Shown piece by piece: positions 2,455 through 25,396 of a stretch of 64,000 nt of DNA. This DNA comes from Candidatus Saganbacteria bacterium. GTDB taxonomy: Bacteria; Margulisbacteria; WOR-1; XYC2-FULL-46-14; XYC2-FULL-37-10. Position numbers and translations under genes: made by a program. The first letter of the stretch is position 1, and every line of letters starts with the position of its first letter. The notes under the pieces are model-generated. The model did no database searches. It was not told the DNA's origin and saw only the letters and a program-made list of their open reading frames with translations. Location: NCBI GenBank assembly GCA_016223245.1, contig JACRPL010000021.1, forward strand, positions 101,725 through 165,724, in the 5' to 3' direction.

Positions 2455-3588
2455 ATGAGAAAATTAAAGCTGGCTTTTATCGGCGGCGGCCTGAATTCTG
2501 CAGTCGGGATGACTCACAAGATAGCCTCGCAGATGGACGGCAGATTTGAATTGACAGCCGGATGTTTCAGCCCTGATAAGTGTATAAACGAGCAAACAGC
2601 CAAAGAGTGGCATCCGGAAAGATTGTATGCGACCTGGGTAGAACTATTGGCGGAGGAAAAGAACAAATCTGATGTGCTAGTCGCTTTGACCCCGACGTTG
2701 CTTCATGCCGATATTATCGTGGCGGCGGTTAAATCTGGTTATCCAGTTATTTCTGAAAAAGCATTGACCTCTTCCGTTGCCGACGCCAGGAGAATAAAAA
2801 CGGCCCTTGATGATTTGCAGGGTTACCTGGCTGTGACTTTTAACTATACTGGTTATCCAATGCTCAGGGAATTAAAGTCGGTTATTAAGCAGAATCGCTT
2901 GGGAAAGATCCAGCAGATCCAGATCGAGATGCCCCAGGAAGGGTTTGCGCGCCTGGGACAGGACGGCCGGCCGGTGGTGCCGCAGGAATGGAGACTAAGC
3001 GACGGCGATATTCCGACCATTTCATTAGACTTAGGTGTTCATCTTCATTCTATCATCTATTTTCTGACGGGTGAGAGACCGCTCGAGGTGACGGCGGTGC
3101 AGGACAGTTTTGGCTCTTTTAGGCAGATAATTGATAACGTCATATGCATTGCAAAATATTCTAATGGCCTAATATGTAATATCTGGTATGGCAAAACGGC
3201 GCTTGGCTGCCGGAACGGGCTCAAGGTAAGGGTTTACGGTGAACTGGGTTCGGCCGAGTGGTATCAGATGGACCCCGAGCGGCTTTTCCTGCGCGATAAC
3301 CGGGGACAGGAGCAAGTCCTCGATCGGGGCAGTCTCGGTGTTAACGTCTGCGGGTTGCCGCGTTACGGCAGGTTTAAGGCGGGTCATCCCGCCGGCTTTA
3401 TCGAGGCCTTCGCCAATCTTTACTGCGATATCGCGGATAGTATCACAGCCTATATGGGAAAATCATCTTATGATGCCGAATATGTTTACGGTATCGATGA
3501 AGCGCTGGAAGGTTTATGCATGTTTCAATCAGTCGACAAGGCGGCCAAAAATAAAACATGGGTAAATGTGGAGAGAGATAGCGAATGA
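2455..3588 (+). CDS. Gfo/Idh/MocA-family oxidoreductase
   Basis: Predicted NAD(P)-dependent sugar oxidoreductase of 377 residues. The N-terminal Rossmann fold starts with LAFIGGGLN, and a SEKALTSS segment near residue 100 replaces the usual EKP motif of the family. The C-terminal half has the alpha/beta character of the family's substrate domain, including DLGVHLHSI near residue 190. It sits between pseG and a glycosyltransferase fusion, one base after the pseG stop, with a GAGGAG ribosome site. The substrate is unknown; oxidation of a nucleotide sugar or of pseudaminic acid itself are both possible. The MocA-type 3-dehydrogenase role in diamino-uronic acid synthesis is another option. Confidence 0.8.
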   Translation: MRKLKLAFIGGGLNSAVGMTHKIASQMDGRFELTAGCFSPDKCINEQTAKEWHPERLYATWVELLAEEKNKSDVLVALTPTLLHADIIVAAVKSGYPVISEKALTSSVADARRIKTALDDLQGYLAVTFNYTGYPMLRELKSVIKQNRLGKIQQIQIEMPQEGFARLGQDGRPVVPQEWRLSDGDIPTISLDLGVHLHSIIYFLTGERPLEVTAVQDSFGSFRQIIDNVICIAKYSNGLICNIWYGKTALGCRNGLKVRVYGELGSAEWYQMDPERLFLRDNRGQEQVLDRGSLGVNVCGLPRYGRFKAGHPAGFIEAFANLYCDIADSITAYMGKSSYDAEYVYGIDEALEGLCMFQSVDKAAKNKTWVNVERDSE

Positions 3589-5915
3589 AGTTTTCAATTA
3601 TTATACCGGCTTACAATACGGGAAAATATATTGAGGGCTGTTTGGCCAGCCTGGAGGCTCAGCAAATCGGCGATTATGAAAGGGAAGCCGTCCTGATCGA
3701 TGATTACTCAACTGACGCCACTCACCGGCTACTCAAGGAATTCCAGGACAAGAACAAAGAGTGGGTCAAACTAGTCAAGAACGGTAAAAATCTTGGCCTC
3801 GGGATGACGAGAAACGTTGGGATCGAAAACGCAACAGGCGACTGGCTGATCTTTCTTGATGCCGATGACTCGTTAAGCCCGGCAGGGTTAAAAAAAATAT
3901 CGGAATATATCCGCTCAAATGATGCTGTTGATATTGTCGGTTTTGATTGGGCGTATGATTCGGCATCTACCATCAACAATGAAAAATATGGTGGACGCTG
4001 GGACCTGGACGTCCTGTCTCGGGATAAAGGCGAGTTGATCAAGAACTTTATTTCTTTGAGCATGGAAAATTCTGTCATTTACGCCGCCATGAAAAAAGAT
4101 CTGTTGACCACCTCCGGCTTGAGGTTTAGAGATGGTTTGCATGAAGATATTGATTTTATGCTCAAGGCATATTGCCATTCGTCTAAGTGCGGGGTGCTGA
4201 ACCAGCCAATATACCTGAAAAACAATCGAGAAGGTTCGATCGTCAACTCGATCTCAGAGATGCACATTAAAAGCTTTTTTCGCGCGCTTAAAGAAATCCA
4301 TGATTTTCTGCTGGCACATACTCTATTTACTGATGAGATCTGTCGGTATTTTTATCGTGGCGCCTTGCGAGCTGTCTCAACTGAGGCGAGATATATCTGG
4401 CAGGGCGGCGGGCCGGCAGATCGACAAGATAAGCTTTATTTTATGCTCTATGATGAGTTTATCGGCCTGACCAGGCATTGCGGCACGGCGCTGGCCGAGC
4501 TGGTAGGTTCTTTTGAGCCTAAATACATGATGATCGCGAAATTCTTTCTGGAATTGATGGGGGAAAAGCCAGTCAGCGTCCAAAAAGAGATCGGCGCCTA
4601 CCTAAAGGGAATAAATGATAAAAGCTGGGGCTGTTATGATCTCTATAACTCGCTCTTCTTGACTCCGGATGAAATTAGGACTTGCTGTAAGAGATTTTTC
4701 GTCAACAACGCAATGAAAGGCGACGTTGTACTGCTTGACCGCCAACGCTGTGAAGATGCAAGCCCTGAAAATATCCTGCTGGAGAAAAGGGGTTTGCATG
4801 TCAGAACTAACACTGGCTTGACGGACGAGTGTGTCGGCTGCCCTTACTTGACGTTTAAAAAATGGGGATCGATAAATGATCTCCGAATCGAGTATCTTTC
4901 TATTGAATACAACACAGTATGCAACATGCGCTGCAATTATTGCAGTGACCGTTTTTATGGCGGGAAACAGCCGGCCTACAAGGTCGAATCATTATTACAG
5001 CAACTATTTGAGCGTGGTAGTTTTAAGACGTGCCGCACGGTGATGTGGGGCGGCGGGGAACCGACGCTTGATGGGAATTTTCCCGCTCTGATCGCCTATA
5101 TGGCTTCACAGCTCCCGAAGATCAAGCCAAGGATCTTTACCAACGCGACAGTGTTTTCCGAAACGATCGCACGGTTGCTTGAGGGAAATAATATCTTGAC
5201 CATAACTAGCATTGACGCCGGCCGAGCGGAAACTTTCTATAAAATCAGAAAACATAAAGGTTTTGACCAGGTCTTTGAAAATTTGAAAAGGTATTCGACG
5301 TCCAGGCCGGAAAATATGATCATTAAATACATCATAACAGAAGATAACCGCGCTTTTGGCGAGCTGGAGGCTTTTGCCAGCCGCATTCGGCAGTATTCCC
5401 TGGAAAGGTGCAATTTCCAAATAAGTGTGAACTTTAAAGAAGAGCATGTTGACCTTGACTCTCTGATCGCCGCGATAGCCCTCTACACGAATTTGCTGGA
5501 TATTGGCGTGAAGTTCATATTTTTTGACGATCTGTTCTGGCAGAGGATTTCATCTAAACTAAACGCCCACAACGACAAATTTTTGGCGAGAGCAAAAGAA
5601 TTAGATTTGTTAAGGGCTTTTGCAGACAGCGATGAATATCGAAGCGTCGTCATTTGGGGGGCGGGAATTCAGGCCGGTTTCCTGATCGAAAAATCGGCCT
5701 TTTTTAAGAAAGTTAAGATCGAGTACCTGGTTGATAATGCGGCTGAAAAGCTCGGTAAAAAGTTCCACGGCCACGCGGTCTTGCCCCCTGAGACCTTGCT
5801 CAACTCCGCTCATCCGGTTTTAATTGCTGCCGTGCAAAATGTGCCTAATATCCTGGATAATTTTTCCAGGCTAGGCATTTCTGAGTCACGGCTGATAAAA
5901 GGGCTGGTCATCTGA
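3585..5915 (+). CDS. GT2 glycosyltransferase / radical SAM / Rossmann three-domain fusion
   Basis: This 776-residue protein has three recognisable parts. Residues 1 to about 230 are a GT-A glycosyltransferase family 2 domain (FSIIIPAYNTG at the start, FLDADD as the metal-binding DxD). Residues 446-453 hold a CxxxCxxC cluster (CNMRCNYC) with a following WGGGEPT segment, which is diagnostic of a radical SAM domain spanning about 430-640. From about residue 688 there is a VVIWGAG nucleotide-binding loop and a C-terminal Rossmann-like domain, as seen in many sugar-modifying proteins. I saw no internal stop or frame change, so this is a real fusion in the sequence given. It overlaps its neighbours by 4 and 1 bases. 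The radical chemistry and sugar substrate are unknown. Confidence 0.8.
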   Translation: MKFSIIIPAYNTGKYIEGCLASLEAQQIGDYEREAVLIDDYSTDATHRLLKEFQDKNKEWVKLVKNGKNLGLGMTRNVGIENATGDWLIFLDADDSLSPAGLKKISEYIRSNDAVDIVGFDWAYDSASTINNEKYGGRWDLDVLSRDKGELIKNFISLSMENSVIYAAMKKDLLTTSGLRFRDGLHEDIDFMLKAYCHSSKCGVLNQPIYLKNNREGSIVNSISEMHIKSFFRALKEIHDFLLAHTLFTDEICRYFYRGALRAVSTEARYIWQGGGPADRQDKLYFMLYDEFIGLTRHCGTALAELVGSFEPKYMMIAKFFLELMGEKPVSVQKEIGAYLKGINDKSWGCYDLYNSLFLTPDEIRTCCKRFFVNNAMKGDVVLLDRQRCEDASPENILLEKRGLHVRTNTGLTDECVGCPYLTFKKWGSINDLRIEYLSIEYNTVCNMRCNYCSDRFYGGKQPAYKVESLLQQLFERGSFKTCRTVMWGGGEPTLDGNFPALIAYMASQLPKIKPRIFTNATVFSETIARLLEGNNILTITSIDAGRAETFYKIRKHKGFDQVFENLKRYSTSRPENMIIKYIITEDNRAFGELEAFASRIRQYSLERCNFQISVNFKEEHVDLDSLIAAIALYTNLLDIGVKFIFFDDLFWQRISSKLNAHNDKFLARAKELDLLRAFADSDEYRSVVIWGAGIQAGFLIEKSAFFKKVKIEYLVDNAAEKLGKKFHGHAVLPPETLLNSAHPVLIAAVQNVPNILDNFSRLGISESRLIKGLVI

Positions 5916-10048: not shown

Positions 10049-12009
10049 ATAATAGCAATTTAATAATACTTGAATCTCTTGATGAAGCTAAAAGGTTTAT
10101 TAATGTTCTTTGCGTTAAAGATAATCGCTTATTAAATAGTATTATTATTTCTTTAACGCCTAATATCAGATATTATCTTAAGAAAAATGGCGTAGGAAGC
10201 GTGAATACGTCTGAAATTATCGATGAGCGATCATTTAATGAAATAATGGATAAGAGTTGTGAATTAGAAGATTATATTAGGGAATATGCCAAAAATAGCG
10301 CATATGAGATGCCAGAAGAATATTTTTTAAGCGCATATTTCCATTATTTAAGGCAGATCTGGAGGTATTTCTTATTTAATATCGAATTGATCGGAAAATC
10401 ATTGGATGTTAAGAAACCTCAAAGGATATATTCGTTTAAATATAAAAAAGTAATTTCTTGTTCTCCTTGGATCGATAGGGCTCAACTTTATATTGGGGAT
10501 ATTGCCGAACAAATATGCCGAAACAATGGGATAGAGTTTGTTGGTTTTGCCTCACAAGATATGCAAATTGAAAATGAATTCAAATTACACGGAACCAACT
10601 CGCCTTATCATAAATTATGCGATCAAATAAGTTATTGTATTTTTTCGATCGCAACTTATATTATGTCGAAGAAGAAAACCCTTTTGGTCTCAAACTTTTC
10701 ATATAATATGAATTTAGTCTGTGCGGGGTTGTCGGCCAAATCAAAAGACATTAAAATATGTCAATATTATCTTGGCTCATCCGGGGCATTGGAGATTTTG
10801 AGGGCGATTAAGCAGCTTTATAATGCGAGCTTTAAGAAAAAGAACAAGAAAGGCTCCTCTTCTTATCATTCGGATTTTGCATTATCTGTCCAAACATATG
10901 CTAAATATTTTGAGAAATTATATGATAATGGTATTGCTAAGCGTTATCTTGAAACAACTTTAAAGAATATCAAGACATTGGGTCATGTTGGAATATACAA
11001 AGGGGTAGACATTGCGGGGTTATTGCATCAAAAGGTTGAGACGGACCTAATTCCTTATATGCTAAGAATTCATTTCCAAGCCTTCGGTTTGAAAATGGGA
11101 ATTCAAGCCCTTAAACCAAACTATGTGGTATCACAAATGAATTTTGGGATCAACGGAGCGTTAGGTGAGGCATGCCGTGAATTAGGTCTCCCGTCAGTCT
11201 TGATCAGCCACGGCTCCCATGTTTTACATGAAGATAAATATTCCGCAAGGGAGCATCAGATCCTCGCCAAAAATATCCTTGTTGGAGATTATAAATATCT
11301 TGCGGTCCAGTCTCCCTATGCAAGGGACTTAGCGCTGAAAATGACGAATGCACCGGAGAAGATCGTTTGTATCAAGCCTCTTCTTTGGGGAAGGACAAAA
11401 ATTCCTCCCCATAGAACCAATCCATCTCAATTGACTATTGTTCATGCCGGCACTTTTAAACTTCGGCACAATCGCCGGTATATTTATGAAACTTCAGACG
11501 AATTTCTTCAAAGTTTGATAGATCTGTGCGAGGTCGTTTCAGGTTTGCCGCATTTGAAATTGATAATCAAGATAAGGCCGGATATTTTTGAGCTTCCATT
11601 TGATGCTATAAAGATGTTCTTGCCTTCTTCTTCAAATATTGTCATTGAAACCCAAGCGCCCTTCCTTGATGTCTTGAAAATTGCCAATCTCCTCGTTAGT
11701 TTTTCTTCTACTACTATCGAAGAAGCTCTTAATAATAATATTCCTGTCCTGCTTTACGGCGGCGGAGGCCGTTATGCTCATATTCCGACTAATCCTTTTT
11801 CAGACAGTAATGAAAAGATCGAGCAAGCAGTTACTTTTGCGAAAAATAAAGAAAGTCTGAAAAAATATCTGACCATGTTGGATCAAAAACATTCTTCCCT
11901 CAAGATATCCGAAATAGAATTTAAGAAACATTGTTTTGGCAATACGGAAGCGGTTGATTTTAGTGATTGGTTCTTGAAGCTCAGCCATTGCAAAATGGAG
12001 GGAAAATAA
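10045..12009 (+). CDS. Large putative glycosyltransferase (GT-B-like surface polysaccharide protein)
   Basis: A 654-residue protein with no signal peptide or obvious membrane segment. The C-terminal half has features of a GT-B nucleotide-sugar-binding domain: PSVLISHGSHVLHED near residue 390, an IKIRPD segment, and SFSSTTIEEALNNNIPVLLYGG near residue 555, the pattern seen in capsule and teichoic-acid-type transferases. The N-terminal 300 residues match nothing I recognise. It is the first full-length gene after the consensus promoter at 9974-10001. The donor sugar is unknown; CMP-activated sugars are likely candidates given the neighbours. The gene is AT-rich (about one third GC on one sampled line). 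Confidence 0.5.
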   Translation: MNNSNLIILESLDEAKRFINVLCVKDNRLLNSIIISLTPNIRYYLKKNGVGSVNTSEIIDERSFNEIMDKSCELEDYIREYAKNSAYEMPEEYFLSAYFHYLRQIWRYFLFNIELIGKSLDVKKPQRIYSFKYKKVISCSPWIDRAQLYIGDIAEQICRNNGIEFVGFASQDMQIENEFKLHGTNSPYHKLCDQISYCIFSIATYIMSKKKTLLVSNFSYNMNLVCAGLSAKSKDIKICQYYLGSSGALEILRAIKQLYNASFKKKNKKGSSSYHSDFALSVQTYAKYFEKLYDNGIAKRYLETTLKNIKTLGHVGIYKGVDIAGLLHQKVETDLIPYMLRIHFQAFGLKMGIQALKPNYVVSQMNFGINGALGEACRELGLPSVLISHGSHVLHEDKYSAREHQILAKNILVGDYKYLAVQSPYARDLALKMTNAPEKIVCIKPLLWGRTKIPPHRTNPSQLTIVHAGTFKLRHNRRYIYETSDEFLQSLIDLCEVVSGLPHLKLIIKIRPDIFELPFDAIKMFLPSSSNIVIETQAPFLDVLKIANLLVSFSSTTIEEALNNNIPVLLYGGGGRYAHIPTNPFSDSNEKIEQAVTFAKNKESLKKYLTMLDQKHSSLKISEIEFKKHCFGNTEAVDFSDWFLKLSHCKMEGK

Positions 12010-12011
12010 TT

Positions 12012-13187
12012 ATGGATCGTTCGTTGAATGTGCTTGTGGTTGGCGCAGGGATGTATGTATGCGGTAGAGGGACAGACGGTTATGGTACTATCTTGCCCGC
12101 GCTGTATCAGGCTAAAAAATCAGGATTGCTCGGAGAGGTCAAGGTCGCTTCTGCGGGTGCGGCAGGGCTAAAAGAACTCGAAGAAAAGAACCACCTGCTT
12201 GCGCGAATGTTTGGTTTTAAGCTTAATATTAAATGCTTTTCTGATGACAAGACTGCCGGTACTAAGTCCTATAATAAAGCTGTTTCAAAAGGGATACTTC
12301 CGGATTGCGCGATCATTTCGATCCCGGACCATCTTCATTATGAAGTCGCATCCTTTTTGATGAAGAAAAAAATATCTTGTTTGGTCGTTAAGCCGCTCGC
12401 ACCGACTCTGAAAGAGGTGAAAAAGCTTATCCAAATTCAAAATGAAAACGAGTTATATTGTGCGGTCGAGTTTCATAAGCGCTTTGATCGATCAAATCTG
12501 AAATTGAAGGATATCCTCGCTGGAGGAGCGCTTGGAGATCCTCTATATTTTGTGGTAGAATATAGCCAGAGAAAAAGCGTTCCAACGGAAAAGTTTAAGT
12601 CTTGGGTTCGGCGAACGAATATCTTCCAATATTTGGGGATCCATTACATAGATATTATTTATTTTGCAACACGTGCAATTCCTCAAAAGGTGATGGCTTT
12701 AGGACAAAAGAATTTTCTTGTTTCTAAAGGTGTCAATACTTACGATTCGATCCAATGCATTGTCGAATGGAAGCTTCCCGTAGGTAATAAATTCACCAGT
12801 ACGATCATGGTGAACTGGATCGATCCGGAATGCACGTCCGCGATGTCGGACCAGAAGATAAAAGTGATCGGGACAAAAGGAAGATATGAGGCTGACCAGA
12901 AAAACAGGGGCATCTGCATTGTGACCGATGAGGGGGGCGTCGAAGAACCCAATCCTGATTTCTGCGGACATTACGGCTCTATCGGTGAAGTGAATTATCA
13001 AGGATATGGGATTGACAGCATTTTGCAGTATTTTGATGATATTTGTAAAATAAAAAGAGGCTTTTTGACTGTAAATGGTTTAGAAGATACGAGACCGACC
13101 TTTAAGCAATCGCTAATTCCGACAAAGGTGCTGGAAAGCGCGAATCAGAGTTTGAGGAGCAACGGCAAATGGATCAATTTAAGGTGA
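12012..13187 (+). CDS. Gfo/Idh/MocA-family oxidoreductase
   Basis: A predicted 391-residue NAD(P)-dependent oxidoreductase with LNVLVVGAGMYVCGRG as the Rossmann loop. A VVKPLAPTLKE segment near residue 125 stands where the family has EKPLA, and EFHKRFD near residue 155 matches the family's common YNRRF/HKRFD region. The start at 12012 is preferred over an upstream frame opening at 11967 because of the GGAGG site at 11998 and the normal N terminus. It overlaps the next gene by 19 bases. It is not a close copy of the oxidoreductase at 2455. The substrate is probably a sugar or sugar acid, unknown in detail. Confidence 0.8.
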   Translation: MDRSLNVLVVGAGMYVCGRGTDGYGTILPALYQAKKSGLLGEVKVASAGAAGLKELEEKNHLLARMFGFKLNIKCFSDDKTAGTKSYNKAVSKGILPDCAIISIPDHLHYEVASFLMKKKISCLVVKPLAPTLKEVKKLIQIQNENELYCAVEFHKRFDRSNLKLKDILAGGALGDPLYFVVEYSQRKSVPTEKFKSWVRRTNIFQYLGIHYIDIIYFATRAIPQKVMALGQKNFLVSKGVNTYDSIQCIVEWKLPVGNKFTSTIMVNWIDPECTSAMSDQKIKVIGTKGRYEADQKNRGICIVTDEGGVEEPNPDFCGHYGSIGEVNYQGYGIDSILQYFDDICKIKRGFLTVNGLEDTRPTFKQSLIPTKVLESANQSLRSNGKWINLR

Positions 13188-14851
13188 AAAACACCGTGGA
13201 TTTTCTGATAATCATACCGCCTGCGGATACGGTTAAAACTATCTATCCGCCCTATGGTTCTATGTATATTGCCAGCGCTTTAAGAAATAAAGGTTTTAAT
13301 CCAAAACTATTGAACATTGATCTGGAACGGATCACGAATGCAGAAATAATTGAAAGAATTCGGATTCTAGATCCTAAATATATAGGCTTTAGCGGTATTG
13401 TAGCGCCATCTTATAAGTACTTGAAGGAATTGAGCCGGGAATTAAAAAACGCTTTTCCGGAAAAAAAACAGATACTGGGCGGTGGGCTGGCGTCGGCCGC
13501 TGCCGTATTATTTAATAATACGCCGATCGATATAATCGTTAAAGGAGAAGGGGATATTACGATCGTAGAGTTGATTGAGGGGCTGAATAATGGGAGGAGT
13601 TTGGAAAATATTCCTGGCATTTATTACAGGAACGATCTTTCTTATAATTTCACGGGCGACAGAAGATTAATAACGAATCTTGATTCTCTTCCTTACCCTG
13701 CGTTTGATCTGATAGACCTAGATCATTATTTACCCGATGGTCTAGAATTCATGAGAAAATTCACAAAAAAAATAAAGAACAATAGTTTGCTTGATCCCAA
13801 AAGAAAAAGAAGAATGATCACGATCGCCACCAGCAGGGGATGTTTTGGGCAATGTAGTTTTTGTTTCAGGGCGTATGCCGGTTTGAGGCTGTTTTCATTA
13901 AAGTATATTTTTGATCTTGTGGAGTATTGCATCAAGAAATATGGTGTCGGATTTTTCTCGTTTGGCGATGAATGTTTTGCCCCTAACAAGCAGAGGAACT
14001 GGCAGTTTATTGAAGAATTCAAAAGGAGAAAATTGGATGTGCCGTTCAGGATACTCGGAATGCGCGTTGATACCGTGGACAAAGAAATAATAGAGGCCTA
14101 TAAAGAGATCGGGTGTTGGATGATCGAGTATGGCTTTGAATCTGGCAGCCAAAAAATGCTTAACATCATGGATAAAAGGGTAAACGTAGAGCAAAATCGC
14201 CGAGTGGGACGGTGGACATATGAAGCAGGTATTTACACTTCACCCACTATTGTGCTGGCAATGCCGGGAGAATCTGATCGTACGGTACGGGAGTCGATCG
14301 ATTTTTTAAAATCTCTAAACTTTAATTTCAAACAATACCAATATACCTACGCCCTACCCATACCTGGTTCGCCGCTTTATGATTTTGCTAGATTGTCAGG
14401 CGCAATAGAAGATGAAGATGAATACCTTACTTCTTTAACTGGATCTGTTTCGGGGGCAGGAGTTTTTCATGTGAATTTGACCGATGAGCCAGATGAGGTT
14501 GTCGCGGGGTGGAGCAAGAAGATAGTTGCCGAGGTTGACGGGCATTATTTTATAAGTAAATATAAGATACGTTTTCTAGTATGGTTATTTATTCTTCTTG
14601 GTAAAATTAAATATCATATTGACAAGAACAGTCTATTCGCGATATTTAAAAAGAAAATCTTCGGATTGTTTTCAATAAGTCTTGCGCCTAAGATGCAAGT
14701 TGATGCTGCTGCAGTGAAAAGGATCAGCAAATTTAGGAAAAGAAAAGAATTGAGTTTTGAAAAATTCTGCGAGGGATTTAGCAATTCAACAATAAATCGC
14801 GATTTAGCTCTAAAAAAGATAAATCAAAGGATAAGCCCTGCCAATGAATAA
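13169..14851 (+). CDS. B12-binding-type radical SAM protein
   Basis: A 560-residue protein. Residues 1 to about 150 form a cobalamin-binding-like Rossmann domain (PPYGSMYIASALRNKGF, then an ILGGGLAS segment). Residues 225-232 are CFGQCSFC, the CxxxCxxC iron-sulfur motif of radical SAM enzymes, within a domain reaching about residue 430. The final 100 residues are basic and partly hydrophobic and could contact the membrane. Enzymes of this class often methylate unactivated carbons or rearrange carbon skeletons; here a lipid-linked or nucleotide sugar is a reasonable substrate. The ATG overlaps the previous gene by 19 bases with a GAGGAGC site upstream. Confidence 0.78.
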   Translation: MDQFKVKNTVDFLIIIPPADTVKTIYPPYGSMYIASALRNKGFNPKLLNIDLERITNAEIIERIRILDPKYIGFSGIVAPSYKYLKELSRELKNAFPEKKQILGGGLASAAAVLFNNTPIDIIVKGEGDITIVELIEGLNNGRSLENIPGIYYRNDLSYNFTGDRRLITNLDSLPYPAFDLIDLDHYLPDGLEFMRKFTKKIKNNSLLDPKRKRRMITIATSRGCFGQCSFCFRAYAGLRLFSLKYIFDLVEYCIKKYGVGFFSFGDECFAPNKQRNWQFIEEFKRRKLDVPFRILGMRVDTVDKEIIEAYKEIGCWMIEYGFESGSQKMLNIMDKRVNVEQNRRVGRWTYEAGIYTSPTIVLAMPGESDRTVRESIDFLKSLNFNFKQYQYTYALPIPGSPLYDFARLSGAIEDEDEYLTSLTGSVSGAGVFHVNLTDEPDEVVAGWSKKIVAEVDGHYFISKYKIRFLVWLFILLGKIKYHIDKNSLFAIFKKKIFGLFSISLAPKMQVDAAAVKRISKFRKRKELSFEKFCEGFSNSTINRDLALKKINQRISPANE

Positions 14852-15575
14852 TAAAAGCATAGTTGCAATGATCCCTGCTCGTATGGGCAGCACAAGACTT
14901 GCCAGAAAGAACCTAGCGCTGTTGAATGGGAAACCGCTTATTTATTACGCGATCGAAGCGGCAAAACAAGCAGGTGTTTTCTCGAGAATTGTCGTAAATT
15001 CAGAGGATCCCGTTTTTGGCAACATAGCGAATAATTACGGCGTGGATTTTTATCTGCGTCCTGCGCCGCTGGGCGGATCAGATGCCAGGTCTGATGAAGT
15101 TATTTATGATTTTATGAAGCATAATTCAGCGGAAGTAACGGTATGGGTTAATACTACTTCGCCTCTTCAAACTGGAGATGAAATTAAGCGTGCGGTTGGT
15201 TATTTCAGCGATGGAAGGTTTGATAGCCTCATTACTGTAAAGGAAGAGCAGGTTCATGCTCTCTATGACGGCAAGCCGCTTAACTTCAAAGAAAATGAGC
15301 TATTCGCAAAAACGCAGGACCTGTCCCCTGTTCAACGATTTGTTTATTCTGTCATGATATGGAGAAACCAGACTTTCCTGGAGATATACAAAAACCAAGG
15401 ATATGCACTGTTATGCGGCAAGACTGGTTATTTCCCTGTAAGCAAAGAAACTTCGCTTATTGTTAAAACGGAAGATGATTTGCGTCTGATCGAGTATATT
15501 TTGGCGGGTAAAAATGTGCGTCGGGATTATCAAGTACGACATGAAACAATCAATGTAGAGGCGCGCTTTGAATAA
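14844..15575 (+). CDS. CMP-sugar synthetase (acylneuraminate cytidylyltransferase family)
   Basis: A 243-residue cytidylyltransferase with IPARMGSTRLARKNLA at residues 10-25, a divergent form of the ARxGSxxxxxKN nucleotide-binding motif. VNSEDPVFGN and WVNTTSPLQ match the standard positions for the Mg/CTP site, and a KTQDLSPVQRF segment resembles the sugar-binding loop of NeuA/PseF. It should charge a nonulosonic or related keto sugar with CMP. The sugar is not determined. It overlaps the radical SAM gene by 8 bases and the methyltransferase by 8 bases, so the three are likely to be made together. Confidence 0.78.
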   Translation: MNNKSIVAMIPARMGSTRLARKNLALLNGKPLIYYAIEAAKQAGVFSRIVVNSEDPVFGNIANNYGVDFYLRPAPLGGSDARSDEVIYDFMKHNSAEVTVWVNTTSPLQTGDEIKRAVGYFSDGRFDSLITVKEEQVHALYDGKPLNFKENELFAKTQDLSPVQRFVYSVMIWRNQTFLEIYKNQGYALLCGKTGYFPVSKETSLIVKTEDDLRLIEYILAGKNVRRDYQVRHETINVEARFE

Positions 15576-16647
15576 ATTAAACATTAGTTCCGCTATTTTA
15601 TCCAAACGCTTTAAGGACGACGGAAGAGCTGAGGAATTGTTGGGTTTTCCAATGATTCGAATAAGAAATGAAATATCTGACCGGATCAAAAATGGGACGA
15701 TTAAACGAGTTCGCCGCGAAAAATGTCCACTTTGTTGTGGGCAAAAATTTGTGCTGATTGCAAAAAAAGATCGGCTGGGGCTTCCTCTGGAAACGCTCAT
15801 TTGCGATATTTGCGGCCTGGTGTTTTCCGGATCTTTCTTTAGTGCCAGCGGAGAGGATTTGTATTACTCAAATTACTGCAACCTGCTTAAAAATATAGGG
15901 CGCAGTCCAGATCAAATGTTTGCGGCAAGGACAGGTACGGATTCATACGCATGGAAAAGATACCGCTGGATAAAAAATGCTTTGGGTGGCAAATTTAATA
16001 ATATAAGGACCATTATGGAGGTAGGATGCAACGATGGATGCAACCTATATCCATACCATCTAAATGGGTTTAATGTTATAGGATGTGACTTTGATGAGGT
16101 AAGGATGGCGCCCGGCCGATCCAAAGGAATGACCATGCTAAAGGGAGGGATCGAACAACTGCGGAAACTTTCCCAAACGGCGGATTTGCTTATTTTTTCT
16201 CACGTATTAGAACATTTGTCAGATATTGATCGTGCCTTGAGCGAAGCGAAAGAATTACTTTCTTCTGATGGGAGAATTTATATTGAAGTGCCGGGATTTA
16301 AGCGTTGGAATCGGGCCCGTTCAGAAGCAATTTCAGATGAATGGCTTGTTAGCGGGAATAATTTTCTTTCTTATCTTCAGATGGAGCACAACTTTTGTTT
16401 TGAAGCGCGGACATTAAACTTTTTTGCTTTTCGCAACGGTTTGATAGCAGAAAAGGGAGATGAGTTTGTTCGCGCTCTTTATAGGAGAGCAAATTGTCGA
16501 GATCAATTTTCGACTGAAAATAAAGAATACGGATATGGGGTCTATAACTATATTTTAGGAGTTGAAAAGGATTATCAAAAAAGCAATCCACTATGGAAGA
16601 GATTTGGACGATCCATAAGAAATATCTTGAGGGCGGGAAATGGATAA
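15568..16647 (+). CDS. Zinc-ribbon class I methyltransferase
   Basis: A 359-residue SAM-dependent methyltransferase. Residues about 50-80 hold two CxxC pairs (CPLC and CDIC), a small zinc ribbon often seen in front of sugar C- or O-methyltransferases. Residues about 150-260 have the class I fold: MEVGCNDGCN as motif I, then FSHVLEHLSD and the SDGRIYIEVP strand. The start is a TTG at 15568, supported by a GAGG site a few bases upstream and by the 8-base overlap with the previous gene; the first in-frame ATG, at 15652, lacks a ribosome site and would remove little but unstructured sequence. The acceptor is unknown. Confidence 0.75.
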   Translation: MNKLNISSAILSKRFKDDGRAEELLGFPMIRIRNEISDRIKNGTIKRVRREKCPLCCGQKFVLIAKKDRLGLPLETLICDICGLVFSGSFFSASGEDLYYSNYCNLLKNIGRSPDQMFAARTGTDSYAWKRYRWIKNALGGKFNNIRTIMEVGCNDGCNLYPYHLNGFNVIGCDFDEVRMAPGRSKGMTMLKGGIEQLRKLSQTADLLIFSHVLEHLSDIDRALSEAKELLSSDGRIYIEVPGFKRWNRARSEAISDEWLVSGNNFLSYLQMEHNFCFEARTLNFFAFRNGLIAEKGDEFVRALYRRANCRDQFSTENKEYGYGVYNYILGVEKDYQKSNPLWKRFGRSIRNILRAGNG

Positions 16648-18007
16648 AAAGAATGTTTCTATAATTATTAGGTCTCATAACGAAGAGAAATGGATCGCGG
16701 CTTGCCTGCAGGCCGTCTTCAAGCAAGATTATAGGGACTTTGAGGTAATACTTATTGACAACAAGAGCAGTGATAAGACTGTCAAAAAAGCACAGGCATT
16801 TCCGGTTAAAATAGTTTCAATCGATAATTTCTTGCCTGGCAAAGCGATCAATATTGGCATAGAAAATTCAACCGGTAAGTATGTTGTCTGTCTTTCGGCC
16901 CATTGTATCCCGGTCGATAACTGTTGGCTTTCGAATCTGCTCAAGGATTTTGATGATGACAAGGTTGCCGGTGTTTATGGCCGGCAGGAACCGATGGCAT
17001 TCACTTCCGATACCGATAAACGCGACCTGATAACAGTTTTTGGCCTTGACAGAAAAGTGCAATTCAAGGACAGTTTTTTCCACAACGCCAATAGTATGTT
17101 CCGCAGGGATGTCTGGGGGAAAATACCGTTTGATGAAAACATCTCGAATATTGAAGATCGAATTTGGGCAAGAGATGTACTCAAGGCAGGGTATAAAATT
17201 ATTTATGAGCCCGACGCTAGTGTTTATCATTGGCATGGGATCCACCAGAACCAAAATCTAGAACGTTGCACTAATGTTGTAAAGATAATAGAGAATCTTA
17301 ATGGTTTGGACGGTCGAAACTATAATCACCTTCAACTCAAGGACCTAAATATTTTAGCCTTGATCCCTGTAAAAGGTGAAAGTTGTATGCTTGGTGGGCG
17401 GTCATTGTTGGAATACGCTATCAACAGCGTAAAGGAATCACAATTTGTCAAACAAATAGTTGTTTACACTGATTCAGATGAACACGCCGACCTCGCCAGG
17501 AAATTAGGTGCTAATGTGCCGTTTATGAGGGACAGCTCACTTTCGGCAGAGCATATAGGGCTAGAAAATGTTTTTCAGCAAGCCGTTTTAGAATTGGAAA
17601 ACAAAGGGATAATGGCCGACATAATTGTTACTTTAGAGGTGACTTTTCCTTTTCGGCCAAAAGGGTTTATTGACCAGTTGATCATAAGACTTGTCAAGGA
17701 AGGTTTGGATAGCGTGGTTGCGGCTAGGACGGAATTCGGTTCCTGTTGGGTAAAAGAGCCTGAAGGATTGAAGCAAGTTGATTCCGGTTTTGTTCCCAGG
17801 AAATTCAAGGAGCCGGTCTATGTAAGCATCAAAGGTCTCGCCTGCGCGACCCATCCACAATTTTTACGGGAAGGGCGGCTTCTAGGAGAAAAAGTCGGCA
17901 TTGTTGAAATCAATGATCCATATGCCTCTATCGAAGTAAGAAATGAAGAAGGGTTGCGGTTTGCCGGACTATTAGTAGATAATTGGTCGGACAGGAATAT
18001 TAAATGA
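16640..18007 (+). CDS. GT2 glycosyltransferase fused to a CMP-sugar-synthetase-like domain
   Basis: A 455-residue two-domain protein. Residues 1 to about 230 are a GT2 domain (VSIIIRSHNEEKW, then CLSAHCIP and VYGRQEP, with NIEDRIWA near 170). Residues about 236-455 resemble a cytidylyltransferase: ILALIPVKGES, RSLLEYAINSVKES, VVYTDSDEHADLARKLGANVPF and a TLEVTFPFRP segment correspond in order to NeuA motifs. The signature ARGGSKxxxxKN is replaced by PVKGESCMLGG, so CTP binding may be altered or lost. The fusion could pass CMP-sugar directly from synthesis to transfer, or the second domain may be regulatory. The GT2 half is closely related to that of the fusion at 46803. Confidence 0.72.
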   Translation: MDKKNVSIIIRSHNEEKWIAACLQAVFKQDYRDFEVILIDNKSSDKTVKKAQAFPVKIVSIDNFLPGKAINIGIENSTGKYVVCLSAHCIPVDNCWLSNLLKDFDDDKVAGVYGRQEPMAFTSDTDKRDLITVFGLDRKVQFKDSFFHNANSMFRRDVWGKIPFDENISNIEDRIWARDVLKAGYKIIYEPDASVYHWHGIHQNQNLERCTNVVKIIENLNGLDGRNYNHLQLKDLNILALIPVKGESCMLGGRSLLEYAINSVKESQFVKQIVVYTDSDEHADLARKLGANVPFMRDSSLSAEHIGLENVFQQAVLELENKGIMADIIVTLEVTFPFRPKGFIDQLIIRLVKEGLDSVVAARTEFGSCWVKEPEGLKQVDSGFVPRKFKEPVYVSIKGLACATHPQFLREGRLLGEKVGIVEINDPYASIEVRNEEGLRFAGLLVDNWSDRNIK

Positions 18008-19050
18008 AAGAAATTTTAGCCTCTGATAGTAATATCAAAGAATTATTCTTAAGTATTTTGGAAAAAGAAAATGTCCGTCCCGATGTTGCCAAATTTTTAG
18101 TCGAGGGGATCGTTCAGGCTTCACTTCGTGGGGTTGATTCGCACGGAATCAGATTGTTCCATCATTATCTGCAAGGATTTATCCACGGCCGGTTGAATAG
18201 AGATCCGAAATATGATTTTAAACTTACTTCGCCTTCAACTGGAAAACTCGATGGTGATCATGCCCCTGGCCACGCGGCAGGAGCTGAAGGGATGATGAAA
18301 GCGATCGGGATAGCTAGCACAAACGGGATCGGTGCGGTTGCCGTTCACAATTCCAGCCATTTTGGAGCAGCGGCCTATTTTGCTCATATGGCTGCGGGTG
18401 AAGATATGATTGGCTTGAGTTTTACCCATGCGACAGCCCATGTAGTCCCTTTCGGCGGCTTGAGGCCATTTTTAGGTAATAATCCGATCTGCTTAGTTGC
18501 GCCATGTGAAGGTGAGTATCCATTTTGTCTTGATATGGCAACAACTGTTGCGACATTTAATAAAGTCCAGCAATATAAAGAACTAGGAAATGAAATGCCT
18601 CCTGGCTGGGGAGTAGATGAAAAAGGGAACGAAACAAATGACCCGAACGATCTAAGAAGCCTTCTTCCAATTGGCGGATATAAGGGATTCGGCCTAAGCA
18701 TGATGGTTGAAATACTTTGTGGTCTTTTGACAGGATCTCCCTTTGGCCCCAACGTCAGTGCGATGTTCGGAACGCCGATGGACGCGAAGCGATTACTTGG
18801 TCATTTCTTTTTGGCGATAAGGATCGATGCATTTGAAGATCCGATTATGTTTAAAAGCCGATTGAAGAAAATGGTGGACGAATTGAGAAGCGAGCCATCC
18901 AAGGATCCGGAAAAACCCATTATTGCGCCGGGTGATCCGGAGAAAAAAACATGGAAGAAACGCTCAAAAGAGGGTATACCGGTGCCAGAAATGGTATTAA
19001 ACCAATTCAAGCAACTGGCGGGTAACTATAAGGTGCCTTTTAATTTATAA
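18004..19050 (+). CDS. Malate/L-lactate dehydrogenase (Ldh2) family oxidoreductase
   Basis: A 348-residue NAD(P)-dependent 2-hydroxyacid dehydrogenase of the Ldh2/MDH2/YlbC fold, unrelated to classic lactate dehydrogenase. RGVDSHGIR near residue 40, NSSHFGAAAYF near 120 and GGYKGFGLSMMVEI near 225 are the family's conserved blocks. Members interconvert 2-hydroxy and 2-oxo acids or related substrates such as ureidoglycolate. In this island it could supply the 2-oxo acid used by the E1 complex 3 kb downstream or act on a sugar acid. It overlaps the preceding fusion gene by four bases and is followed by the ABC flippase. Confidence 0.85.
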   Translation: MKEILASDSNIKELFLSILEKENVRPDVAKFLVEGIVQASLRGVDSHGIRLFHHYLQGFIHGRLNRDPKYDFKLTSPSTGKLDGDHAPGHAAGAEGMMKAIGIASTNGIGAVAVHNSSHFGAAAYFAHMAAGEDMIGLSFTHATAHVVPFGGLRPFLGNNPICLVAPCEGEYPFCLDMATTVATFNKVQQYKELGNEMPPGWGVDEKGNETNDPNDLRSLLPIGGYKGFGLSMMVEILCGLLTGSPFGPNVSAMFGTPMDAKRLLGHFFLAIRIDAFEDPIMFKSRLKKMVDELRSEPSKDPEKPIIAPGDPEKKTWKKRSKEGIPVPEMVLNQFKQLAGNYKVPFNL

Positions 19051-20852: not shown

Positions 20853-21897
20853 AAAGTTAATTAAAATAGGGGACCATTTGATCGGGAAAAATCAGCCGGT
20901 ATTTATAATTGCCGAAGCGGGCGTCAATCATAACGGCAGTTTAAAGCGGGCGAAGAAAATGGTGATTGCCGCTAAAAAGATTGGGGCGGACGCGATAAAA
21001 TTTCAAACCTTTATTGCCGAGGAACTGGTCACGAAAGATGCGCCGAAAGCAGAATATCAAAAAAGGCAAAGCGGCGTAGGATCGCAATATGAGATGCTCA
21101 AATCCCTGGAATTGTCGGAAATGGATTTTGTGGAACTGCAGCATTTTTGCAGCAAGCAAGGTATAATCTTTTTATCGACTCCATTTGAATTGCGAAGCGC
21201 GGAGCTTCTCGATCGGCTTCAGGTGCCGGCGTTCAAGATAAGTTCCGGCGAGTTGACCAATCTGCCGCTCCTTTCAAAAATAGCGGCTTTTGGCAAGCCC
21301 ATCATATTATCAACCGGGATGTCAAATTTAAGCGAGATCAGAGAGGCCGTGGACGAGATTTATGCCGAGGGGAACCGGAAGTTGATTTTGCTGCACTGCA
21401 CCTCAAATTATCCTACCAGACCGGAAAATGTCAACCTGCTGGCAATGGAAACCATGAGAAGGGCATTTAGTGTTCCCATTGGATATTCGGATCACACACT
21501 GGGGATTGAGATAGCGGTCGCGGCCGTCGCCCTCGGAGCCTGTGTGATTGAAAAGCATTTTACGCTTGACCGGAATCTGCCAGGGCCTGATCATCAAGTG
21601 TCGCTGGAGCCGGAAGAATTCAAAGCAATGGTTGCGACAGTCAGGAACACTGAACAGGCGCTGGGCAGCGGAAAAAAAGAACCGCGGTTTTCAGAACGGA
21701 AGATTGCAAAGGTCGCCAGGAAAAGCTTGGTTGCCGCCAGCAATATTCCCGGCGGTACTAAGCTGATCGCAGAAATGTTGACCGTCAAACGGCCAGGGAC
21801 AGGGATCTCGCCAGAATATATTAGCGTTGTTCTTGGCAAAATCACCCGGCGGGCGCTGAAGCGGGATACCGTTATTTCGTGGGGAATGATCCGATGA
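20845..21897 (+). CDS. neuB: N-acetylneuraminate/legionaminate synthase family protein
   Basis: A 350-residue NeuB-type condensing enzyme: a TIM barrel starting IIAEAGVNHNGSLKRAK, with KFQTFIAEELV, an STPFE block, an IEKHFTLDRNLPGPDHQ block near residue 235 and a C-terminal SAF domain from about 285. It joins phosphoenolpyruvate to a 6-carbon N-acyl amino sugar. GVNHNG and PGPDHQ are the sialic/legionaminic forms, unlike the PseI version at 7093. With NeuC at 26055 and LegB at 56446 a legionaminic-type product is more likely than sialic acid, but sequence alone does not decide. It overlaps the E1 alpha gene by four bases, which ties sugar condensation to the acyl-transfer genes. Confidence 0.88.
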   Translation: MNKKLIKIGDHLIGKNQPVFIIAEAGVNHNGSLKRAKKMVIAAKKIGADAIKFQTFIAEELVTKDAPKAEYQKRQSGVGSQYEMLKSLELSEMDFVELQHFCSKQGIIFLSTPFELRSAELLDRLQVPAFKISSGELTNLPLLSKIAAFGKPIILSTGMSNLSEIREAVDEIYAEGNRKLILLHCTSNYPTRPENVNLLAMETMRRAFSVPIGYSDHTLGIEIAVAAVALGACVIEKHFTLDRNLPGPDHQVSLEPEEFKAMVATVRNTEQALGSGKKEPRFSERKIAKVARKSLVAASNIPGGTKLIAEMLTVKRPGTGISPEYISVVLGKITRRALKRDTVISWGMIR

Positions 21898-22874
21898 ACG
21901 TTGGTAATCAAGAATTAATTGGATATTTGCGGCAGATGATTGTCATTCGTCACTTTGAAGAAAAAGTTGATTGGTTGTTTGCCAGGGGAAAGATCATGGG
22001 GACTTCTCATCTTTGTGTCGGGCAGGAAGCGATTGCTGTTGGGGCCTGCGCTGCTCTTCGTACTGAAGATTACATTACCAGTAACCACCGGGGACATGGA
22101 CACTTCATTGCTAAGGGCGGAGACCCCAAAAAGATAATGGCTGAAATTTTCGGCAAGGCAACCGGCTACTGCAAAGGTAAGGGTGGAACCCAGCACATGT
22201 GTTGTACGGAAGTCGGGCATCTTGGCTCAAACGGGATAACCGGCGGCCAGATCCCGATTGCGACCGGAATTGCGTTTGCGATTAAGTATAACCGCGAGTC
22301 GAAAGTGGTTATTTGTTTTCTTGGAGATGGGGCGACCAACCAGGGAATTTTTCACGAAGCGCTGAACATGGCTGCCCTCTGGAAACTCCCCGTTGTTTAT
22401 GTTTGCGAAAACAACCGGTACGCGATGTCGACCCCGGTTCAGGAAGGGCTTTCGGTTGAACATATCGCTGAACGGGCGGCCGGCTACGGCATGCCCGGCT
22501 TGATTGTTGATGGGAATGATCCACTAGCGATCAAGGAAACAGTTGTCCGGGCTGTAGAACTGGCCAGAGAAGGTAAAGGACCAAGCCTGGTTGAAGCCAA
22601 AACATACCGTCTCCTCGGCCATTCCAAGAGCGATCCCCGCCAGTACAGGACAAAAGAGGAAGAAAAGGCGGCGTGGAAAAATGAACCGATCCGCCGGTTC
22701 GTTGATTTTTTAAAAAAACAGAAGGCCATTGGCGATGATGAGCTGAAAAAAATTGAAGCCGATGTCCAAGCAGAGATTGAGGCAGCGGTCGAATATGCGG
22801 AGAATAGCCCGTTGCCTGGACTGGAAGTTGCCTTCGAGGATATTTTTGTTTATTCTAATGAGGCGGCCCAATGA
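21894..22874 (+). CDS. TPP-dependent 2-oxo acid dehydrogenase E1 alpha subunit
   Basis: A 326-residue E1 alpha of the pyruvate/acetoin dehydrogenase type. The thiamine diphosphate motif runs from GDGATN (residues 144-149) to ENN (172-174), the SNHRGHGHF segment near residue 62 supplies the active-site histidines, and a YRLLGHSKSDP loop lies near 240. With the beta subunit it should decarboxylate a 2-oxo acid and load the acyl group on a lipoyl arm. The start at 21894 gives a 4-base overlap with neuB. The presence of E1 inside a nonulosonic acid operon, followed by a chimeric lipoyl protein and not by E2/E3, argues against a housekeeping role. Composition is GC-richer than the flanks (about 53% on one sampled line). 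Confidence 0.9.
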   Translation: MNVGNQELIGYLRQMIVIRHFEEKVDWLFARGKIMGTSHLCVGQEAIAVGACAALRTEDYITSNHRGHGHFIAKGGDPKKIMAEIFGKATGYCKGKGGTQHMCCTEVGHLGSNGITGGQIPIATGIAFAIKYNRESKVVICFLGDGATNQGIFHEALNMAALWKLPVVYVCENNRYAMSTPVQEGLSVEHIAERAAGYGMPGLIVDGNDPLAIKETVVRAVELAREGKGPSLVEAKTYRLLGHSKSDPRQYRTKEEEKAAWKNEPIRRFVDFLKKQKAIGDDELKKIEADVQAEIEAAVEYAENSPLPGLEVAFEDIFVYSNEAAQ

Positions 22875-23848
22875 AAGAAATGTATTACTGGCAAGCTATC
22901 CAGGAAGCGATGGCCGAAGAAATGGAGCGCGACCGGCGAGTTTTCCTGTTAGGTGAGGACATTGCCGAGTATGGAGGCGCTTTCGGCGTGACACGCGGCC
23001 TGCTTGAAAAATTCGGCAAGCATAGGATTGTCAATACGCCGATTTCCGAGCCGGGAATCGTTGGTCTGGCGACCGGAGCTGCGCTCAAAGGATTACGTCC
23101 AATTGTTGAAATCATGTTTATGGATTTTATGACTCTGTGTTCAGATCAAATATTAAACCATGCAGCCAAATACGCTTATATGTATGCTGGCATGGTTAAT
23201 GTTCCGCTGGTGATAAGGACTCCGGCTGGCGGCCGGCGGGCCTACGGTCCAACCCATTCACAAAGCTTGGAATCATGGTTTATGCGTGTTCCTGGCCTCA
23301 AGGTTGTGGCTCCTTCTGACCCCGCCGACGCCAAAGGATTGCTTAAAACAGCAATCCGCGATGATAACCCGGTACTTTTTGTCGAACATAAAATGCTCTA
23401 TGCGGTCAAAGGCCCGGTGCCGAAAAAAGAATATCTCATCCCGTTCGGTCAGGCGGCTATCCGCCGCTCAGGAAACGATGTCACGATTGTGACCTACTCG
23501 GAGATGGTTCCTCGCGCACTACGCACCGCCGAGAAATTGTCGGAAGAAAATATCGATGCCGAAGTTATTGATTTACGCACCCTGGCACCGCTTGATTTAC
23601 CGGCAGTTTTTGCTTCCGTGAAAAAGACCGGCAGGGTACTGATTGCTGAAGAAGGATGGAAAACCGGTGGTGTCGGGGCAGAGATTAGCGCGGCGATCGG
23701 CGAGAATGTCCTAGAATATTTGGAAGCGCCGATCCGTCGGGTAGCGGCCAAAGACGTTCATATCCCTTCGAGTGATGTTCTGGAAAAATTGGTCTTGCCG
23801 GACGAGAATGATATTTACGACGCGGCTATGGAAATAATGGGAGGTTAA
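22871..23848 (+). CDS. TPP-dependent 2-oxo acid dehydrogenase E1 beta subunit
   Basis: A 325-residue transketolase-like E1 beta. FLLGEDIAEYGG and NTPISEPGIVGLATGAA in the first 70 residues, FMDFMTLCSDQI near residue 82 and a C-terminal transketolase domain with VTYSEMVPRALRTAEKL and VIDLRTLAPLD segments match pyruvate and acetoin dehydrogenase E1 beta along the whole length. It should pair with the alpha subunit to form the alpha2-beta2 E1. The ATG overlaps the alpha stop by four bases. The next gene begins three bases after the stop and encodes the lipoyl domain protein that E1 would load. All catalytic regions appear intact. Confidence 0.9.
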   Translation: MKEMYYWQAIQEAMAEEMERDRRVFLLGEDIAEYGGAFGVTRGLLEKFGKHRIVNTPISEPGIVGLATGAALKGLRPIVEIMFMDFMTLCSDQILNHAAKYAYMYAGMVNVPLVIRTPAGGRRAYGPTHSQSLESWFMRVPGLKVVAPSDPADAKGLLKTAIRDDNPVLFVEHKMLYAVKGPVPKKEYLIPFGQAAIRRSGNDVTIVTYSEMVPRALRTAEKLSEENIDAEVIDLRTLAPLDLPAVFASVKKTGRVLIAEEGWKTGGVGAEISAAIGENVLEYLEAPIRRVAAKDVHIPSSDVLEKLVLPDENDIYDAAMEIMGG

Positions 23849-23851
23849 TTA

Positions 23852-25396
23852 ATGGCAACGGAAATTATTATTCCTAAAATGGGGGTCAATATGACCGAGG
23901 CGATCCTGTCCCGCTGGCTGAAGCAGGAAGGGGAGCTCGTGAACAAAGGTGAGCCGGTTGTTATGATTGAAACGGACAAGGCGATTTTTGAAATAGAAGC
24001 TGAGGATGCGGGAAATCTCTTGAAGCAAGTTGTTAGAGAAGGGGAAACAGTTCCGGTAATGAAAGTGATCGGTTATATAGGAACGCCGGGCGAAAAATTG
24101 CTGGAGAACAAAAAAATTGAAACTAAAACGGGAGATGGTGGAGAAATAAAAACCGAAACAAAAACCAAAGCAAGTCCCGCAGCCAGGCGGCTTGCCAAGG
24201 AAAATAGTTTATCGCTCGAAACGATATCACCGACCGGCCCAAAAGGGGAAGTGACGGTCGAAGATGTGGAAAATGCACTGACATCAATTAAGGTTTCCTG
24301 GGCGGGGAAATTATCCGATGCTTTTATTAACAGTTTAAAGGGGGATATTCAGCGGTTTGCCGCATTGGGATCAGAAGATAAAATTAAACAATATAAGAAC
24401 AATGGGGCAGAGATCGGCGCGGGAGTTGTCATTGGTAAAGGAAGTTATATCATTGCCGAATATCTGGAGATAGGCGACGGGACAAAGATCGGAGACAATT
24501 GCGTGATCAGTTGTCGCAAGATTAAATTAGGGGAAATGAATTTTATCGGCCGAAATTCAGAGATCAGTTGCAAGGAGCTCCTGATTGGCGATGTCCTGTA
24601 CGCGGTCGGAGATTTTTTGATTGGCGGTGGCGGGGAACAGGAACCCAATGCTCGTTTGTGGATTGGCAATAATTGTTTCCTTGGGAAGGGGGTGGTTCTT
24701 AATCCGTGTGAGGAGATTATCCTTGAGGACGAGGTTTGCTTGAGCCCGTGGGCAAAGGTTTTTACCCACAGCCACTGGCAGTCGGCGCTTGACGGTTACA
24801 ATGCCGATTTCGCACCGGTCCGGATTAAGAAAGGAGCCTGGTTGGGACCCGCTTCATTTGTTATGCCCGGCGTAACGATAGGCGCAGGGGCGACGGTCAC
24901 CGGCAATTCGTTTGTTGCCCTTGATGTCCCGCCGCGTTCCCTGGCTGGCGGTGTCCCTGCGAAGGTTATAAAGTCGTCTGACCATTATCCTAAACGGCTG
25001 ACTCCCGAACAGAAAGACGCGCTCTTAAAAGGAATTATAGTTGAACTTGTTCTTAAGCTTAAGGACAAGGGATATGGGGTGGAAGAAAAAATATTCTCTG
25101 ATCGTCTGGCGCTGACTGTCCGCCGATCGGGTGTGGAAGCGAAGATCGTATACTCCAGCGCGCTCGATGCGGAAATTGTGCGGCAGGTGATGGAAGGGAC
25201 AAATCGACTGATTATTATAGGTTTTTACCTTGATTTAAAAGGATTGGATGGGACCGAGTTGTCGGTTTTTGATCTGACGGCTCGTTCAGCGACGGGTAGA
25301 CGGGATGAATTATCCGATGAAGTGCGCGAGCATTTAAGGAAAAGAGGCATCCGGTTTACTCCAATACTATGGAGATACATGGAGGGTTTGAAATGA
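23852..25396 (+). CDS. Lipoyl / E1-E3-binding / left-handed beta-helix acyltransferase chimera
   Basis: A 514-residue protein with an E2-like front and a non-E2 back. Residues 1-80 are a lipoyl domain (IPKMGVNMTEA; the lipoylated lysine is K43 in ETDKA). A charged linker follows. Residues about 107-143 are a peripheral-subunit-binding domain (SPAARRLAKEN, TGPKGEVTVEDV). In place of the chloramphenicol-acetyltransferase-like E2 core with its HxxxDG motif, residues about 178-365 are hexapeptide repeats (IGDGTKIGDNCVIS, IGNNCFLG, MPGVTIGAGATVTG) with FTHSHW, His306/His308, as likely catalytic residues. Residues about 375-514 form an unrecognised C-terminal domain. Inference: acyl groups loaded on K43 by E1 are passed to a sugar amine or hydroxyl. 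Confidence 0.85.
   Translation: MATEIIIPKMGVNMTEAILSRWLKQEGELVNKGEPVVMIETDKAIFEIEAEDAGNLLKQVVREGETVPVMKVIGYIGTPGEKLLENKKIETKTGDGGEIKTETKTKASPAARRLAKENSLSLETISPTGPKGEVTVEDVENALTSIKVSWAGKLSDAFINSLKGDIQRFAALGSEDKIKQYKNNGAEIGAGVVIGKGSYIIAEYLEIGDGTKIGDNCVISCRKIKLGEMNFIGRNSEISCKELLIGDVLYAVGDFLIGGGGEQEPNARLWIGNNCFLGKGVVLNPCEEIILEDEVCLSPWAKVFTHSHWQSALDGYNADFAPVRIKKGAWLGPASFVMPGVTIGAGATVTGNSFVALDVPPRSLAGGVPAKVIKSSDHYPKRLTPEQKDALLKGIIVELVLKLKDKGYGVEEKIFSDRLALTVRRSGVEAKIVYSSALDAEIVRQVMEGTNRLIIIGFYLDLKGLDGTELSVFDLTARSATGRRDELSDEVREHLRKRGIRFTPILWRYMEGLK

Follow-up and report, generated by a model that had tools for sequence, protein, structure and literature searches.

The window, a 64,000-nucleotide stretch from the 1.65-Mb genome of a Candidatus Saganbacteria bacterium (G000:C21), encodes a protein in which a GT2 glycosyltransferase is joined to a domain with the fold of a CMP-sugar synthetase. 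Its reading frame overlaps an open reading frame on each side, an operon-like arrangement that makes co-transcription probable. All copies of the C-terminal domain were aligned to Neisseria meningitidis NeuA, whose residue numbering is used for comparison. The relevant features are:

11967 to 13187, + strand: Gfo/Idh/MocA oxidoreductase, a recurrent module partner in the neighbourhood comparison
14844 to 15575, + strand: CMPsynB, a CMP-synthetase-like protein with its P-loop retained, a neighbour of 17 among the first 28 fusions
16640 to 18007, + strand: fusion of GT2 and pseudo-CMP-sugar synthetase, 455 aa, ATG start
16652 to 17254, + strand: GT2 glycosyltransferase domain, residues 5-205 (PF00535, E 1.5e-27), with motifs common to all fusions
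16895 to 16903, + strand: S86-A-H88 at the GT2 D-x-D position; S-x-H in every fusion and in near GT2 relatives
17153 to 17158, + strand: E172-D173, the GT2 catalytic-base motif, invariant among fusions
17345 to 18004, + strand: CMP-sugar-synthetase-fold domain, residues 236-455, predicted to be catalytically dead (AF2, Foldseek, tree)
17363 to 17395, + strand: IPVKGESCMLG, where an 8-residue deletion has taken out the CTP-binding P-loop (NeuA Ser15, Lys16, Lys21, Asn22)
17528 to 17530, + strand: Arg297, equivalent to NeuA Arg71 (cytosine selectivity), retained in 28/28 fusions
17798 to 17800, + strand: Arg387, equivalent to NeuA Arg165 (sugar C1 carboxylate; domain-swapped arm), retained in 24/27 fusions
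17933 to 17941, + strand: E432-V-R434, replacing the Mg2+-binding D209-x-D211 in the alignment to NeuA
18004 to 19050, + strand: Ldh_2-family 2-hydroxyacid dehydrogenase, a recurrent module partner in the neighbourhood comparison

The fusion is real, as the original prediction had proposed. Both domain matches lie far above chance: PF00535 covers residues 7-158 (E 1.5e-27; 97 bits against a Pfam cut-off of 23.3) and PF02348 covers residues 251-367 (E 8.8e-9, above the cut-off). The latter match begins only at profile position 21, that is, past the signature loop, and the NCBIfam PseF model scores 56.2 bits, below its cut-off of 205.7. Two further genomes of the phylum encode homologues along the full length (68% and 51% identity), so the fusion is no assembly artefact. 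A wider search for GT2-NeuA fusions brought the total to 32, from at least six phyla. Named records with 41-66% identity include Syntrophaceae, Halobacteriovoraceae, Planctomycetota, Desulfobacula and another deltaproteobacterium, as well as Aminicenantes, three Magnetococcales, one alphaproteobacterium and Omnitrophota; searches of related groups added fusions from the class of Desulfobacula, Omnitrophota, Planctomycetota, Alphaproteobacteria and the phylum of the Aminicenantes genome. The distribution is sporadic, with a few fusions per several hundred genomes (a count that does not give prevalence, since the groups are samples), and suggests horizontal transfer of the cluster. A scan of genome contigs with the C-terminal half as a single sequence gave no match, and an alignment-based scan did find homologues; phage and plasmid records yielded GT2 matches only, none reaching 80% query coverage.

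The GT2 half retains D40, like the E-D motif, and carries S-x-H in place of D-x-D. The D-x-D motif is not kept by every GT2 protein, so this replacement alone is no bar to GT2 membership. The idea that S-x-H marks a CMP (monophosphate) donor found no support: unfused S-x-H enzymes show no clear link to CMP-synthetases, which occur at 1/6 versus 1/63 loci, both small numbers. Elsewhere in the window, a GT2 domain of the S-x-H kind precedes an alcohol-dehydrogenase-like half in a 629-aa protein (46803-48692) with homologues in several genomes, and a radical SAM domain is joined to a GT2 domain in a protein of 776 aa (3585-5915).

The original prediction hinged on a cytidylyltransferase fold for the C-terminal half, and this fold is borne out. 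An AF2 model of residues 236-455, built with an alignment of relatives that took in two loop-bearing ones, reached a pLDDT of 91.3 and a pTM of 0.87. Foldseek placed 6ifd as its top PDB match (E 3.6e-16, TM about 0.8), followed by further CMP-nonulosonate synthetases (9t4z, 9ftc, 1qwj and 1eyr); the best matches are CMP-NeuAc, CMP-Kdn and CMP-Pse synthetases. The AF2 model of the full-length fusion (pLDDT 73) is too weak to place the GT2 domain relative to the C-terminal domain.

In active CMP-sugar synthetases, Arg12, Ser15, Lys16 and Lys21 of the P-loop bind the phosphates and Asn22 the ribose, Arg71 recognises cytosine, and the carboxylate of the sugar is bound by Arg169/165, which sits on the swapped arm; the active site is formed by the globular domain of one protomer and the arm of the other, and the K21A mutant of the E. 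coli enzyme is dead (PMC6580227). Likewise, NeuA D209A is dead and D211A is 15,000-fold slower (PMC2901514). The signature loop had been thought to have become PVKGESCMLGG in the window protein, but the alignment (LIPVKGE--------SCMLGGRSLLEYAI) reveals an 8-residue deletion, with the same gap in 28/28 fusions. Specifically, Ser15, Lys16 and Lys21 are deleted in all 28 tabulated fusions, and the loop is absent from 32/32 overall, which rules out sequencing error as the source of its loss. The NeuA motif series, which had been taken as kept in order, has also lost its final, metal-binding motif, a loss that had gone unremarked: D-x-D is absent from every fusion (28 tabulated and four later ones), and the window protein reads S-I-E-V-R there. 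Position 209 is Glu in 22/28 fusions, position 211 is Arg in 19, and position 104 (Gln in NeuA) is Glu in 20/28. The PFR motif and the pocket positions 110 and 142 are invariant, as is Arg71; the count for Arg165 refers to the 27 complete copies, the one from G148 being truncated. Among loop-bearing relatives, both the loop and D209 are present in 5/5 copies of the synthetase CMPsynD, and the loop residues in 33 of 35 other NeuA-like proteins. On the strength of these losses and of their evolutionary pattern, the C-terminal domain very probably makes no CMP-sugar.

The dN/dS ratio is about 0.07 for the C-terminal half versus 0.03-0.04 for the GT2 half (G077 with G130 and G307, the pairs whose divergence is measurable, with dS near saturation), and the pseudo-synthetase domain is under purifying selection. 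In seven genomes (G640, G1171, G1429, G1102, G1461, G1474 and G1576), a gene of its own encodes the loop-less domain, at most about 2 kb from a GT2 of the same kind that is not fused; in G1171 a single TGA is all that parts the two, which share a reading frame. These stand-alone copies are less uniform, with Gln at Arg71 in one copy and Arg165 absent in 3/7. In a tree built without the loop and D-x-D columns, the 30 fused and seven separate copies form one clade of 37 (100/95), within which the fusions alone form another (99/96). The loop-bearing CMPsynD is sister to the pseudo clade (99/93 for the whole group), in agreement with an earlier quick tree. This topology indicates that catalysis was probably lost before a single fusion, and the simplest history is one in which a CMPsynD-like synthetase was duplicated, lost catalysis, became paired with GT2 and was fused to it once. 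The clade of separate copies is weak (96/48), so fusions may also have been split again.

The neighbourhoods fall into three settings. One comprises CMPsynB, the Gfo/Idh oxidoreductase and the Ldh_2 dehydrogenase, with CMPsynB near the window fusion and 16 others of the first 28. Another comprises a DAHP-synthase-like enzyme with IolB-like and IolO-like isomerases, in some cases together with CMPsynD and a Kdo-transferase-like GT30, and the third contains NeuB, NeuA-like and dehydrogenase genes (Magnetococcales and G518). A P-loop-bearing synthetase adjoins most copies; none was seen nearby at L048, L191 and L183, whose contigs end early. CMPsynD and the pseudo-synthetase often share a cluster. 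CMPsynB retains the P-loop and the cytosine Arg, and has Ile, Val or Leu at D209 and Lys at D211 in essentially all 17 copies. The genome of the window encodes six other cytidylyltransferase-family genes above the Pfam cut-off.

The available data are compatible with a model, to which we assign a probability of roughly 55%, in which the pseudo domain serves as a CMP-ulosonate binder that gates or feeds GT2. In this model, GT2 is joined to a CMP-ulosonate (nonulosonate-type) synthetase turned pseudoenzyme. The C-terminal domain retains the fold, the arm swapped on dimerization, the cytosine Arg and usually the carboxylate Arg, and lacks the loop for the CTP phosphates and the aspartates for Mg2+. 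CMP-ulosonate made by a cluster-encoded synthetase would be bound by this domain as a non-catalytic receptor, which might either present the donor to the attached GT2 or gate it, comparable to GMPPA. The main argument is that residues for both ends of the CMP-sugar acid tend to stay while those for the triphosphate and the metal are gone, which points to binding rather than catalysis. However, Arg71 is universal in active NeuAs too and could be retained for structural reasons, and the separate Kdo-transferase-like GT30 at L058 and L195 suggests that GT2 may not take the CMP-sugar as donor. The exceptions at Arg71 and Arg165 among the stand-alone copies and the lack of a clear link between S-x-H and CMP-synthetases elsewhere also weigh against the model. 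Of the options first put forward, a single protein that both activates and transfers the donor is disfavoured, given that the CTP-phosphate and Mg2+ ligands are gone in all fusions and loop-bearing synthetases are encoded nearby. The retained cytosine-selectivity Arg likewise disfavours a different nucleotide. The best fit is a sensor without catalysis that steers GT2: sequence and evolution speak strongly for the death, and the sensing and steering are what we infer.

The obligate dimer fold, with an active site shared between protomers, also allows for a different role, in which the dead domain heterodimerises through the arm-swapped interface with CMPsynD or CMPsynB and tethers GT2 to the source of the donor; the active site of the partner may then be completed in trans by Arg387. 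Most copies retain the arm Arg though they have lost their own nucleotide site, and most have a P-loop-bearing synthetase nearby; CMPsynB itself lacks the arm Arg (Thr at Arg165 in 17/17). Fusions nevertheless accompany three synthetase types (B, D and NeuA-like), which makes a single fixed docking interface unlikely, and we regard such docking as possible at about one chance in four's worth of weight, while noting that it is compatible with a receptor role. A further reading, in which the fusion and CMPsynB are complementary half-enzymes that are active only as a heterodimer and hand the CMP-activated sugar acid they form directly to the attached GT2, appears quite improbable. The lost nucleotide-site residues and the faster evolution of the C-terminal half (dN 0.12 versus 0.05 in the GT2 half, G077/G130) would also suit a structural remnant that merely stabilises or dimerises GT2 with no specific ligand. 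This is unlikely in view of the invariance of Arg71 and positions 110 and 142 among fusions, and of a GT2 pairing that persists where the domain is a separate gene. An enzyme with changed chemistry, whether cytidylyltransferase or other, that needs neither P-loop nor D-x-D might explain the newly conserved Glu104, Glu209 and PFR, but none of the known ligands for CTP phosphate or metal remains and P-loop-bearing synthetases are available in trans, leaving this very doubtful.

Relative to the NeuA/PseF-type CMP-nonulosonate synthetases (PF02348; 1eyr, 6ifd, 9ftc, 9t4z), with which it shares the fold, the swapped arm, Arg71 and usually Arg165, the domain lacks the P-loop and D-x-D, has mostly Glu for Gln104 and is fused to or paired with GT2. 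In CgtA/NeuA1 of Campylobacter jejuni, the transferase is a GalNAc transferase from outside GT2 and the synthetase is active, whereas here the transferase is a GT2 and the synthetase is predicted to be dead. The corresponding gene, cgtA/neuA1 (orf5/10), is a natural fusion of glycosyltransferase and CMP-synthetase (PMC7248181). GMPPA, in turn, a nucleotidyltransferase paralogue without catalysis, binds GDP-mannose and regulates GMPPB (PMC11228364); product binding and regulation are proposed here by analogy, although GMPPA has a different ligand, a pyrophosphorylase as partner and no glycosyltransferase fusion. Both parts are known separately, and a family joining a dead nucleotidyltransferase with a glycosyltransferase fusion was not found in a literature search that took in few subscription papers.

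In eukaryotes, nucleotide-sugar supply is regulated by pseudoenzyme paralogues such as GMPPA. A bacterial dead CMP-sugar synthetase wired to a glycosyltransferase, as a fusion or as a gene pair, would provide a direct physical link between synthesis and transfer, and channelling or donor sensing could be tested within a single 455-residue protein. Furthermore, the annotation of such fusions as 'bifunctional' is probably wrong, and the fusion marks clusters of uncultured bacteria whose products are likely to be unusual ulosonic acids.

At L058 (7111-11718) and in G034 (L038/L039), genes for an IolO-like epimerase, IolB (above cut-off), a DAHP-synthase-like enzyme and a CMP-synthetase lie together, at L058 additionally with a Kdo-transferase-like protein, and constitute a candidate pathway to an undescribed CMP-activated ulosonic acid. 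The nonulosonic acid cluster of the window contains, at 21879-25396, Dehydrogenase E1-alpha- and E1-beta-like genes and one protein that combines lipoyl, E3-binding and hexapeptide acyltransferase domains. At L195 (9054-10673, - strand), the unfused-type GT2 of G640 is joined to a degenerate NeuB-like domain, matched only by the end of the NeuB profile, and a 594-aa protein at L193 (12998-14782, - strand) matches both CMP-synthetase and 2-hydroxyacid dehydrogenase. Finally, the viral contigs L128-L132 carry nonulosonic acid genes of NeuA-like, NeuB-like and 2-hydroxyacid dehydrogenase-like type together with an S-x-H GT2, and in L129-L132 the GT2 gene is overlapped by a second loop-bearing CMP-synthetase.
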